Source: an uncultured Bacteroidota bacterium (GTDB taxonomy: Bacteria; Bacteroidota; Bacteroidia; Flavobacteriales; Flavobacteriaceae). Taken from it: 64,000 bases of DNA. Every line of letters begins with the position of its first letter. Positions within the stretch are counted from its first letter, which is position 1. Positions 57,566 to 61,182 of this stretch are shown one piece after another. Made by a program: the position numbers and the translations under genes. The DNA is taken from positions 1-64,000 of the forward strand of contig CABWYN010000002.1 of NCBI GenBank assembly GCA_902509675.1. The letters run 5' to 3'. The notes below the pieces were generated by a model. The model searched no databases. It saw nothing but the letters and a program-made list of their open reading frames with translations, and had not been told where the DNA came from.

Positions 57566-57611
57566 GATGTTTTGTGATTACCGAAACATTCATTAATATT
57601 GCAAACTATTT

Positions 57612-57685
57612 GGTCCTATAGCTCAGTTGGTTAGAGTAGATGACTCATAATCATTTGGTCCCTGGTTCGAGCCCAGGTGGGACCA
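57612..57685 (+). tRNA. tRNA-Met (anticodon CAT)
   Basis: Acceptor GGTCCTA/TGGGACC, D-arm GCTCAGTTGGTTAGAG, anticodon loop CTCATAA, T-arm CCTGGTTCGAGCCCAGG. Confidence 0.93.
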
Positions 57686-57687
57686 CC
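57644..57687 (+). repeat. Left flank of tRNA-Met island: anticodon loop to 3' end, containing the exact 14-nt repeat CAGGTGGGACCACC (57674-57687)
   Basis: CAGGTGGGACCACC recurs at 60148-60161. Confidence 0.85.
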
Positions 57688-57690
57688 CTT

Positions 57691-57716
57691 AAAACCCTTC
57701 TTCTTGAGGGGTTTTT
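57691..57716 (+). terminator. Terminator hairpin after tRNA-Met
   Basis: AAAACCC-ttcttcttga-GGGGTTTT followed by T run. Confidence 0.65.
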
Positions 57717-57742
57717 TGTTTTTTAGAACCAAAATATCCTTT

Positions 57743-57766
57743 GGGGTTCCATTTGGGGTTCCATTT
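57743..57766 (+). repeat. Tandem 12-mer (GGGGTTCCATTT)x2
   Basis: Exact tandem repeat; half-site shared with palindromes at 60056-60095. Confidence 0.9.
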
Positions 57767-57785
57767 CATTGATTTTTAATTTGAG

Positions 57786-57809
57786 AAAGTGTAAAAGCAA
57801 TTACACTTT
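57786..57809. promoter_or_regulatory. Candidate operator palindrome upstream of the methyltransferase gene
   Basis: AAAGTGTAA-AAGCAA-TTACACTTT, perfect 9-bp arms; near copy upstream of nuclease gene. Confidence 0.6.
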
Positions 57810-57928
57810 AATTTAGAATTAACAAAGTTTAATATCCTTTTTCCGATTAGTAATTAAAATTATTAGGGACACGAAATTAATTTAAATACAGAGTTGTTGT
57901 TTTTAAAAATAAATGTAGTTTCGTAACC

Positions 57929-59152
57929 ATGTATAACCATGATGAAAAACTTTATTCCATTTCAGAACTTGCTGACATTTTAGGCGTTACAAAGGAAACT
58001 TTGAGAAGGTGGGATAGGTCGGGAAAATTAAAAGCCATTAGAGATAACAAAGGTTATAGAAAGTATCCAGAAGCTAATTTAAAATCTATTCCTGAGTTTT
58101 GTTTCTGGTTTGACAAATCTGAACATAAAAAAGAAAACCCTAAAAGAGATTACAGTGTTATTGAACTTTTTGCTGGTGCCGGAGGAATGGCACTAGGTTT
58201 TGAAAAATCAGGGCTAAAATCACTTGTACTAAACGAAATTGACAAATACGCTTGTGAAACTTTAAGAAATAATCGTCCAAAATGGAATATCCTTGAGGGT
58301 GATGTAAAAAAATTTTCATTCTCAAAGTATAAAAATAAAGTTGATATTGTAAGTGGGGGGTTCCCTTGCCAAGCCTTTAGTTATGCTGGAAAAAAACTTG
58401 GTTTTGAAGACGCTAGAGGAACCTTGTTTTTTGAATTTGCAAGGGTTGTTAAAGAAACTATGCCAAAAATATGTGTAGGTGAAAACGTAAGAGGTTTATT
58501 CATGCACGATTCTGGAAAAACACTAAAAGGGATGGTTGATGTATTAGATGAAATAGGGTATAAGGTAATTAGTCCTAAAATATTAAAAGCCATTTTTTAT
58601 AAAGTTCCTCAAAAACGAGAAAGAGTAATCATTGTTGGTGTTAGAAAAGATTTAAAAATTGATTTTACCTTTCCAAAACCAGTAAATAAAGTTTATACTA
58701 TGAGGGACGTACTCTTCAAAGGAGATTTGTATGATTCCGATGTTCCTGAAAGTTTGGGAAGCAAATATCCTAATGATAAAAAGAAGGTATTGAAATTAGT
58801 TCCACAAGGTGGGTATTGGAGAGATCTTCCTTTAAAAATTCAAAAAAAGTATATGGGTAAAAGTTTTTATTTAGGAGGAGGGAAAACAGGAATGGCAAGA
58901 AGGTTAAGTCTAGACGAACCATCTTTAACTGTAACCACAAGCCCTGCTCAAAAACAAACAGAAAGATGTCACCCTATTGAAACAAGACCGTTACAAATTA
59001 GAGAATATGCAAGAGTTCAAACTTTTCCTGACAATTGGATGTTTTCTGGCTCAGTCTCACAACAATATAAACAAATCGGCAATGCGGTTCCTGTAAACTT
59101 AGCCTATTATTTAGGATGTCAGTTGGTAAAAAGTTTAAACTCTTTAGAATAA
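57929..59152 (+). CDS. Fusion of N-terminal MerR-like HTH and C5-cytosine DNA methyltransferase (Type II M)
   Basis: YSISELADILGVTKETLRRWDRSGKLKAIRDNKGYRKY; VIELFAGAGGMALGFEKSG; GGFPCQAFSYAG; ENVRGL; QKRERVIIVGVR; QIGNAVPVNLAYYLG. Confidence 0.95.
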   Translation: MYNHDEKLYSISELADILGVTKETLRRWDRSGKLKAIRDNKGYRKYPEANLKSIPEFCFWFDKSEHKKENPKRDYSVIELFAGAGGMALGFEKSGLKSLVLNEIDKYACETLRNNRPKWNILEGDVKKFSFSKYKNKVDIVSGGFPCQAFSYAGKKLGFEDARGTLFFEFARVVKETMPKICVGENVRGLFMHDSGKTLKGMVDVLDEIGYKVISPKILKAIFYKVPQKRERVIIVGVRKDLKIDFTFPKPVNKVYTMRDVLFKGDLYDSDVPESLGSKYPNDKKKVLKLVPQGGYWRDLPLKIQKKYMGKSFYLGGGKTGMARRLSLDEPSLTVTTSPAQKQTERCHPIETRPLQIREYARVQTFPDNWMFSGSVSQQYKQIGNAVPVNLAYYLGCQLVKSLNSLE

Positions 59153-59159
59153 AGGGGTG

Positions 59160-59867
59160 TTATATTTTTATTTTTTCTATTTGTTTTGCAAGGATTTGAC
59201 AAGCTTCGTCTAGTTTCGATTTTGCGTTGTGATTATTAGCAAGATTGGTTAAACTTTTGATTAAACAATTGTAAAAGTCTTCATAACCGGATATTCTATA
59301 CCACAAGTCTTCCCCAATTAAAACAGGAAATCTATTTTCAATATTTTTATAATGAGTACTTAAAGAATCATATTCTCCGTAAAGAACTCCTACGAAAATA
59401 TCTTCAATTCTAACATCTCTATCACCGTTCTGTTTTAACAGTCTATATCCTCCGTGTAGCTCATTAATTATTGGAGTAACATCACCCGAGTTTATAGTAT
59501 TTGGCCCTGCCTTTAATTGACAATATTTATACCTGCCATCAACTTTGTCTTCAAACTCAATGTCCAGACCTCCTCCAACTGAACCTTTAACATTTGAAAA
59601 TATGTCTACAACCATGTTCTGAACATTTGAACCAAAAGAAGTAGAAATACTACTACCTAAGATTCTTGGATACATTAAAGATTTGGCAAGACTAAGAGGA
59701 TCTGAATTTCCAAAACCAAAATTGGATAAATAATAAATTAAAAATGGATTTATATTATAAGAAGATAACTTAGAATGTTTTTTCAAACCATTGTTAATCA
59801 AATTTTGAAAAATTTTTTTTTCAAAAATTTCGCAAGCTTTTTTGAGTAACCTGTTTTTGTCATCCAT
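59160..59867 (-). CDS. Type II restriction endonuclease, probably EcoO109I-like
   Basis: Convergent 8 nt from the methyltransferase; INPF, LDIEFEDK...YCQLKAGPNTI (D...QxK-type active site), VGVLYGEYDSLSTHY, GEDLW resemble remembered EcoO109I segments. Confidence 0.7.
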   Translation of the reverse strand: MDDKNRLLKKACEIFEKKIFQNLINNGLKKHSKLSSYNINPFLIYYLSNFGFGNSDPLSLAKSLMYPRILGSSISTSFGSNVQNMVVDIFSNVKGSVGGGLDIEFEDKVDGRYKYCQLKAGPNTINSGDVTPIINELHGGYRLLKQNGDRDVRIEDIFVGVLYGEYDSLSTHYKNIENRFPVLIGEDLWYRISGYEDFYNCLIKSLTNLANNHNAKSKLDEACQILAKQIEKIKI

Positions 59868-59917
59868 AATTTAAATATAGCTTTTTTTGAGGTATTTGTT
59901 TCCTATATAGGTAATTC

Positions 59918-59941
59918 TAAGTGTAACTGCTTTTACATTTT
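59918..59941. promoter_or_regulatory. Candidate operator upstream of the restriction endonuclease gene
   Basis: TAAGTGTAACTGCTTTTACATTTT; 21 of 24 identical to the reverse complement of 57786-57809, same orientation relative to its gene. Confidence 0.6.
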
Positions 59942-60025
59942 AGGGTGATTTCCAGTACAAAAAAATACTGATAATTTTCTTTCAAAAGTTAAAGTCCAAA
60001 CCGGACTCTAACCAGACCTAATCAT

Positions 60026-60053
60026 AAAAAGTGATTTAGCTAACTCACTTTTT
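60026..60053. repeat. 28-nt near-perfect palindrome
   Basis: AAAAAGTGATTTAG/CTAACTCACTTTTT, one mismatched pair. Confidence 0.85.
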
Positions 60054-60055
60054 GG

Positions 60056-60095
60056 TGGAACCCCGGGGTTCCATTATGGAACCCTAAGGGTTCCA
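60056..60095. repeat. Two adjacent palindromes from TGGAACCC/GGGTTCCA half-sites
   Basis: TGGAACCCCGGGGTTCCA (60056-60073, perfect) and TGGAACCCTAAGGGTTCCA (60077-60095, perfect around one central base). Confidence 0.9.
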
Positions 60096-60112
60096 CTCAC
60101 AATTGTAACTGC

Positions 60113-60161
60113 CTGATAATCAGTAATGTTTAGGTATGGTTATAGTACAGGTGGGACCACC
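60113..60161 (+). pseudogene. Decayed 3' half of tRNA-Met (island right end)
   Basis: CTGATAATCAG...TGGTTATAGTACAGGTGGGACCACC aligns to CTCATAATCA...TGGTTCGAGCCCAGGTGGGACCACC; last 25 nt 21/25 identical, last 14 nt exact. Confidence 0.7.
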
Positions 60162-60164
60162 AAC

Positions 60165-60190
60165 AAAACCCCTCCTTGAGAGGGGTTTTT
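60165..60190 (+). terminator. Terminator hairpin at island right edge
   Basis: AAAACCCCTC-cttga-GAGGGGTTTTT, similar to the hairpin after intact tRNA-Met. Confidence 0.75.
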
Positions 60191-60261
60191 ATTTTCTTAA
60201 GGACACTGTTTTTTATAAAAAAAACAGTAATTTCAAAAAACTAATCTTAAACAACTATTAA

Positions 60262-61182
60262 ATGAAAAACTATATAATTTACTTAATGATATTATGCTTT
60301 TCTTTTTCTTTTGCACAAAAGAAAGTTAACGGAAAGCTATACATTGAACATCCAGCAATGGAAACTGTCGAACAGTTTAATAAAGCTTTTGTTGCAGGTG
60401 ATCTCGAAACAATTAAAAGCCTTGTCGATGACAATTTTTATTGGAGAAACTCAACAATGAGAACTGAACCCGGGACTCTACAACAGCTCCTAAATAGGTC
60501 TAATTACCTTAGTAAAAATATTGTAAACTTTGAAATTAAACATTATGGAGGCGCATATCCAGACGCTTTAGAGTATACAAAAGACAACATATTAGAAGTA
60601 ATGACGTGGACCTGGATGTCAGGATATGACAAGAACACAGGAGTAGAGCTTGACATGCCTAGGTATGCTAGTTTTAGAATGAATAAGGAAGGAAAAATCC
60701 GCTCTGTTAATATTATGGATGATCAAGTACTTTGGAACAAAGCATATGACGCATGGGACACCAGAGCTAACGGAGTTATTTACAAAGACCATCCGCTAGT
60801 TACGAAAGTGAGGCTAATGATGCAAGATTATCAAACTCAAGATGTTGAAAAAATAAAGAGCAATTATACTGAGTCCACTAGGTTTTATGATGTTATGAAT
60901 TCTCCGATTAACGAGTTTAAAACATTAGAAGAAGAGTTTGCTCAATTTAATCAGTACATGGAAGTATTAGAACTAGTCGATATAAGAGAAAGTGGCTACC
61001 CTGATGTTCTGGATTACGAAGGAAACGGCATGGTGGTTATTTCTTGGTGGGAAATGGAGTTTAGAAATAGAAAGTCAGGCAACACCAGTACGATTAAACA
61101 GCACATACAGCATGCTTTTAATGAAAAGGGAGAAATTATAAGAGAAGATTATTATTTTAATCCTGCTCAGCTTCCTCAATAA
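60262..61182 (+). CDS. Secreted protein with two NTF2/SnoaL-like domains
   Basis: Signal peptide MKNYIIYLMILCFSFSFA; two similar segments AMETVEQFNKAFVAGDLETIKSLVDDNFYW and LVTKVRLMMQDYQTQDVEKIKSNYTESTRFY. Confidence 0.65.
   Translation: MKNYIIYLMILCFSFSFAQKKVNGKLYIEHPAMETVEQFNKAFVAGDLETIKSLVDDNFYWRNSTMRTEPGTLQQLLNRSNYLSKNIVNFEIKHYGGAYPDALEYTKDNILEVMTWTWMSGYDKNTGVELDMPRYASFRMNKEGKIRSVNIMDDQVLWNKAYDAWDTRANGVIYKDHPLVTKVRLMMQDYQTQDVEKIKSNYTESTRFYDVMNSPINEFKTLEEEFAQFNQYMEVLELVDIRESGYPDVLDYEGNGMVVISWWEMEFRNRKSGNTSTIKQHIQHAFNEKGEIIREDYYFNPAQLPQ

Follow-up and report, generated by a model that had tools for sequence, protein, structure and literature searches.

The 64,000-nucleotide stretch analysed here (the window; positions 1 to 64,000 of contig CABWYN010000002.1, from an uncultured member of the Flavobacteriaceae) carries an element at 57674-60161, set into the 3' end of a tRNA-Met gene. 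Its cargo is a C5-cytosine DNA methyltransferase and a restriction nuclease, and it measures 2474 bp from core to core. The core, CAGGTGGGACCACC, is identical to the tRNA 3' end and stands at both boundaries. The features of the locus are listed below, with G and L numbers as our handles for genomes and loci.

57612-57685 (Rfam, 67 bits) or 57611-57688 (ARAGORN), + strand: tRNA-Met(CAT), the attB gene; 5' part from the host, 3' end from the core onward element-supplied
57674-57687, + strand: left core (attL), CAGGTGGGACCACC
57691-57722, + strand: element-borne rho-independent terminator behind the tRNA, a left-end sequence common to G434, G024 and G375
57743-57763, + strand: left arm-type pair, GGGGTTCCA-TTT-GGGGTTCCA, with a 12-bp period
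57786-57809, unstranded: left palindrome AAAGTGTAAAAGCAATTACACTTT, +112 from the core, a distance fixed as in several other units
57929-59152, + strand: C5-cytosine DNA methyltransferase with an N-terminal MerR-type helix-turn-helix (HTH), 407 aa (PF00145, E=4e-82)
59160-59867, - strand: EcoO109I-family type II restriction endonuclease, 235 aa (PF14511 RE_EcoO109I, E=1e-19), convergent with the methyltransferase
59912-59941, unstranded: inverted partner of the left palindrome
59993-60015, + strand: right-end motif AGTCCAAACCGGACTCTAACCAG, ~155 bp before the right core, common to five other integrase-less units
60028-60051, unstranded: right palindrome AAAGTGATTTAGCTAACTCACTTT, -120 from the right core
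60056-60095, unstranded: right arm-type cluster, four inverted or direct GGG(G)TTCCA copies
60113-60147, + strand: attP half (CTGATAATCAG ... TATGGTTATAGTA), T-arm-like, conserved among elements of the window class
60148-60161, + strand: right core (attR)
60162-60199, + strand: displaced host sequence, the original tRNA-Met terminator, aligning with the empty sites of G004 and G007
60262-61182, + strand: host SnoaL-like gene, directly after tRNA-Met in the empty-site relatives

The window has no third copy of the core, even when one mismatch is tolerated, and a shuffled-sequence control gave 0.00, so that a chance origin of the repeat is rejected. The original prediction had placed an intact tRNA-Met at 57612-57685 and an exact repeat of its 3' end at 60148-60161; Rfam, ARAGORN and a repeat scan upheld both, and the 21/25 match over the last 25 nt and the CTGATAATCAG match at 60113-60123 are as it described. 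The direct repeat extends to 63 nt at 76% identity (57663-57725 and 60137-60199), spanning the tRNA end together with a strong rho-independent terminator at either side. Beyond what had been noticed before, a GGGGTTCCA direct pair lies at 57743-57763, four copies recur in the right end at 60056-60095, and palindromes are present at both ends. Judged by this layout, arm-type sites appear to flank the core. An integrase of its own, which defines a tyrosine-recombinase tRNA island, is absent: Pfam and an integrase scan confirm that only the methyltransferase and the nuclease lie between the two copies, with no integrase-like open reading frame (ORF) between the cores.

The tRNA-Met locus was compared in 20 genomes of the same genus, many of the genomes being incomplete single-amplified or metagenome-assembled genomes (SAGs or MAGs). 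In G004 and G007, tRNA-Met is followed by a terminator and then by the same SnoaL gene, giving precise empty sites in which attB joins both flanks. The window flanks, when joined at the core, align through the junction at 280/331 and 279/325 identical positions, respectively. Since the empty sites continue uninterrupted from the core to this SnoaL gene, the second core copy is an insertion junction, and the insertion is precise. Relatives that lack the restriction-modification (R-M) genes and still carry the second tRNA fragment had been named as evidence against an insertion; G004 and G007 lack genes and fragment alike. None of the other 20 genomes of the genus has the window nuclease. Other cargo at the same tRNA, also sought as the prediction proposed, was found in four of the 19 other loci with readable downstream sequence (G005, G010, G015 and G018), each insertion with cargo other than that of the window element; the remaining 15 show no second core.

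These comparisons also indicate which sequence belongs to the element. The sequence following the left core, CTTAAAACCC..GAGGGGTTTTTTGTTTTTTA, is found again in the G434, G024 and G375 elements and is thus element-borne, whereas what follows the right core aligns with the empty-site hosts. By these alignments the element replaced the last tRNA bases and the terminator, the displaced host end now running from the core rightward. The right-hand copy had been taken for a decayed, displaced tRNA fragment. Its likeness to a tRNA 3' half stands, but its origin as host tRNA is rejected: GGTTATAGTNCAGGTGGGACCACC is conserved across independent elements (window, G434, UBA7446 and G138), so that the stretch preceding the right core (CTGATAATCAG ... 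GGTTATAGTNCAGGTGGGACCACC) is the attP of the element, a mimic of the tRNA T-arm.

The R-M cargo is itself ordinary. Both reading frames are open throughout. The nuclease scores above the PF14511 cut-off and has the conserved GxDxEF...(Q)xK motif of the EcoO109I family, retaining a GGGLDIEF...QLKAGPNTIN core where closer relatives share GxDxEF...QLK(S/A)GPNTIN; a phmmer search against the PDB returned nothing significant. As in EcoO109I-type R-M systems, a C5 methyltransferase adjoins a PF14511 nuclease, but the window methyltransferase bears the N-terminal MerR-type HTH and RGGNCCY is no more than a candidate recognition site. This HTH, fused to the methyltransferase N terminus (57929-58140), may let the R-M pair control its own expression. 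Elsewhere in the family, PF14511 nucleases lack a tRNA within the fetched 2-4 kb, and the R-M pair is hence not tied to the tRNA-Met site.

Units of the same plan recur at tRNA-Met. We found 22 fully bounded integrase-less units of 0.6-4.6 kb in 16 genomes, usually arranged, from left to right, as a core, a terminator, arm repeats with a 12-bp spacing, the cargo, inverted copies of the arms, an attP half and a second core. Across 400 family genomes, the paired repeat GGGGTTCCANNNGGGGTTCCA had four matches at up to one mismatch: the window, G434 and two apparently coding ones without a tRNA. In G434 (the single-cell genome AG-390-M23, of another genus) the same ends follow tRNA-Met and bound 2582 bp with a Bsp6I-type nuclease and a C5 methyltransferase. 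An exact arm-pattern scan of 84,980 genomes gave 18 matches, five of them behind an annotated tRNA-Met (L138, L140, L142, L144, which is G434, and L152) and a sixth, L149, with a tRNA-end core at the contig edge. L138 carries a GmrSD/NsnA-type protein, its right end lying out of view, and the UBA7446 unit holds a trypsin-like protease in 1433 bp. A search with right-end DNA recovered units from further genera, with tandem core-bounded arrays behind tRNA-Met in G404, G080, G180, G108 and G375 and single units in G024 and G367; units in G124 and G194 were added through a core count in 241 genomes, 112 of which contain the core, against a single match for a reversed control sequence. A profile of Bacteroidota integrases and Xer recombinases detected the integrases of autonomous elements and none in the units (that of G010 being represented by that of G015, to which it is 97.5% identical).

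Cargo is swapped between units, with R-M and candidate defence genes recurrent. In the class formed by the window, G434 and UBA7446, ends that are 74-93% identical surround unrelated cargo. The units were found partly via the window's own ends, which biases the classes and the cargo proportions, and those of G080, G367 and G018, in which an exact arm pair is not clear, are less certain members. Core-bounded units with integrases occur in some larger genomes (G213, G257, G093, G275 and G266). Core repeats of 183-202 bp in G169, G275 and G099 were considered and rejected as members of the unit class. A second UBA7446 contig (L149/L189) starts at a GTGGGGCCACTT core with GGGTTCCA arms and continues through two more cores (units of 2.6 kb and 0.7 kb), which suggests another array cut at the contig end.

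The arms are specific to their own element. An exact 8-mer pair with a 12-bp period lies ~60-100 bp behind the core in 15 of 20 distinct left ends, compared with 3 of 750 interior stretches. Among the 16 units with such a pair (14 integrase-less and two autonomous), the left-arm 8-mer recurs in the unit's own right end in 16/16 cases and in the right ends of other units in 20/240, about half of the cross-matches listed being between units of one arm class. In 20,000 permutations the matching score averaged 5.5 and never exceeded 28, against 42 observed. The arm classes themselves differ: GGGTTCCA, GGGTACCA, GTGTACCA, GAGTTCCA, GTGTTCCA, CCGAACC, GGGTAATA and TGGCAACA. Arms matched at both ends are the signature expected of lambda-type arm sites read by an arm-binding integrase, and the unit arms would fit such sites. 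Several integrase-less units with different cargo also have palindromes AAAGTG..CACTTT at ~+112 and -120, and AGTCCAAACCGGACTNTAACCAG at ~-155, at near-fixed distances; neither palindrome nor motif was seen in the two autonomous elements tested (G343 and G027). We would guess at bidirectional terminators or an accessory site as the simplest explanation, a transfer signal being another guess.

Sister elements have moved recently between genera of Flavobacteriaceae. Between G010 and G375, which belong to different genera and whose lepA genes are 73.2% identical, a 631-653-bp unit encoding a single small membrane protein shows 99.5% identity; the G015 and G375 copies are 97.8% identical (lepA between these genera 73-75%), and within one genus those of G015 and G010 are 97.5% identical (lepA 77.7%). 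A 3.6-kb Bsp6I R-M unit is 96.0% identical in G404 and G108 (lepA 69.8%), although it opens one array and occupies the third place in the other. The same two genomes also have in common a PDC-S18 unit, 85.7% identical. How individual units reached the same tRNA in unrelated downstream contexts is difficult to account for by anything other than site-specific recombination.

Autonomous elements whose ends are laid out like those of the units do encode integrases (G343, with GGGTACTA arms, G096, G027 and L152 from Draconibacterium). In L152 (Draconibacterium sediminis) a 542-aa tyrosine recombinase lies behind GGGGTTCCATTTAGGGTTCCATT, which equals the left arms of G434 and is of the window arm-repeat type. 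The closest integrases, the P0001/P0002 family, comprise Arm-DNA-bind_5, Phage_int_SAM_5 and Phage_integrase domains and are encoded immediately downstream of tRNA-Met, Phe, Asp or Val genes, with a terminator in between; most of their loci have a short repeat pair with the same 12-bp step before the integrase. This family of ~535-aa proteins is our candidate for the helper. G343 (L187 and L197) has two autonomous relatives of this family, at tRNA-Met and tRNA-Phe, with different arms, and both seem to have a ParB-like/DNA methylase gene beside the integrase.

The window element is probably a non-autonomous tRNA-Met integrating element with R-M cargo that was moved in trans. It would carry a complete attP, that is, the core with arm-type sites on both sides, and no recombinase. 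A foreign integrase would then act in trans on this attP and on the tRNA-Met attB by way of a circular intermediate, and the tRNA would remain whole, since a copy of its 3' end is delivered with the element, together with a terminator. Once installed, the cargo may behave like any other R-M system, guarding against foreign DNA and also counteracting loss of the element. Of the two origins offered in the original prediction, mobilization in trans is the better supported, by the matched-end integrase-less family and by the two units near-identical across genera; loss of an integrase is less so.

Several observations weigh against movement in trans. A flavobacterial integrase with GGGTTCCA arms was not found, only that of Draconibacterium, whose right end is out of view, and none of the carrier genomes was found to have a helper with matching arms. 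Within the genus there are at most two Xer recombinases per genome and two integrases at tRNA-Asn; G180, which is 98% complete and has two units, encodes only two Xer-type recombinases. A helper is therefore not resident; its presence is probably passing, and it may come in together with the element or by way of another vector. IMG/VR yielded no arm pattern, attR pattern or integrase relatives, and thus no viral carrier. Neither a circular form nor a near-identical copy of the window element elsewhere was found, and the incompleteness of the SAGs and MAGs counts on the same side. Resident candidates were rejected as helpers: the only accessory integrases of the genus (G020 and G009) are tied to tRNA-Asn, and the same-family integrase of G434 sits at tRNA-Phe with other arms. 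The G020 and G009 integrases are ~350 aa, the former (L159, G020:C8) at a tRNA-Asn gene and the latter (L160, G009:C6) at a copy of its 3' part.

The best of the rival explanations, though unlikely, is a cis-mobilizable element (CIME), a decayed integrative and conjugative or integrative and mobilizable element (ICE or IME) that has lost integrase and transfer genes, keeps attL and attR, and moves at most in cis beside an autonomous element. CIMEs, for example those related to ICESt1, and their tandem accretion at one attB are documented (PMC5704250), and 15 Dehalococcoides ssrA islands likewise keep att sites and lack integration modules (PMC3146451). The window element also has attL and attR without integration or transfer genes, and unit cores recur in autonomous elements, yet no decayed integrase or transfer gene was recognized in any unit. 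Movement in cis needs a neighbour, whereas the units stand alone or in integrase-less arrays: their fetched surroundings contain no integrase other than one of 349 aa (L180), outside the array, the fetched stretches hold no tRNA-Met integrase, and two units are near-identical in other genera without an adjacent autonomous partner. Moreover, the compact and uniform geometry, with palindromes and motifs at fixed distances, is not expected from independent decay, and the units differ from CIMEs in having complete, private arm sites at both ends.

Far less probable is homologous recombination after natural DNA uptake, with tRNA-Met as the left homology and the terminator and core as the right. The tRNA and a similar terminator are indeed shared, and exchange at the tRNA flanks could swap downstream cargo, but the right homology amounts only to the 14-bp core and a similar terminator, hosts of one and the same unit have different downstream genes, and it is left unexplained why a unit has arm repeats of its own, spaced at 12 bp and matching between its two ends. 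Least probable of all is that host XerC/XerD act on the core as in dif-using elements. In many carriers no other tyrosine recombinase was found, but the core corresponds to a tRNA 3' end, and arms that change from one element to the next would not be needed by Xer recombinases, which are not known to have an arm-binding domain.

Tycheposons, phage-inducible chromosomal islands (PICIs), phage-inducible chromosomal minimalist islands (PICMIs) and Pseudomonas tmRNA islands resemble the trans-mobilized units in their tRNA or tmRNA target, defence cargo and use of a helper for transfer. The first three have their own integrase, a tycheposon being a tRNA-targeting element with its own tyrosine recombinase, which the window element lacks. 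The Pseudomonas islands, transduced by a jumbo phage, also encode their own integrase (PMC12595487), unlike the present units. Flavobacteriia tRNA-Met islands and ICEs use the same tRNA 3' end as attB and have a direct repeat at both ends, but ICECleSHZ29, in a tRNA-Met-CAT gene, is 75 kb long with integrase and conjugation genes, and its 17-bp repeat is tcccgtcttcgctacaa (PMC12561888). Clusters of attC sites lacking integron-integrases (CALINs), which are integrase-less integron cassette arrays, and miniature inverted-repeat transposable elements (MITEs) are likewise small recombinase-less cargo units mobilized in trans by a related recombinase (PMC11389934); the present boundaries are a tRNA-end core and apparent lambda-type arms rather than attC or transposon inverted repeats, with an arm class of its own for each unit. 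The present units differ from all of these as a compact class that follows one shared plan, with complete arm sites, no recombinase and recent inter-genus copies, a variant of non-autonomous integrative elements. The open literature searched held no description of integrase-less tRNA R-M elements, an absence that is no proof of novelty.

Streamlined bacteria have few mobile-element genes, yet their R-M and defence genes turn over rapidly, and the units bear on how single defence genes enter such genomes. A wider proposal, for and against which we see about equal chances, is that Flavobacteriaceae with small genomes share a tRNA-Met cassette system: integrase-less units below 5 kb would fall into arm compatibility classes, each moved by its own travelling integrase, with cargo swapped within the class and units stacked in tandem. 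If true, this would amount to an exchange of defence genes, much like that of integrons, within streamlined genomes without a matching integrase of their own, and arm classes would predict which integrase moves which cargo. Recombinase-less units of 0.6-4.6 kb escape integrase-based island finders but are detectable through paired core repeats and 12-bp-spaced arms.

Two minor observations concern cargo and relatives at this site. An orphan protein of ~140 aa (VIRYKNYGC...), without a Pfam match, occurs as cargo with varied neighbours in L181 (G024) and L185 (G108b) and also near the G009 integrase (L160:7544-7978). At the tRNA-Met 3' end of L077 (G030; ~100-1100, reverse complement) stand two tandem copies of a 406-bp unit with an ORF judged by eye to be GIY-YIG-nuclease-like; each copy ends in a copy of the tRNA 3' half, possibly marking a homing-type relative at the tRNA-Met site.

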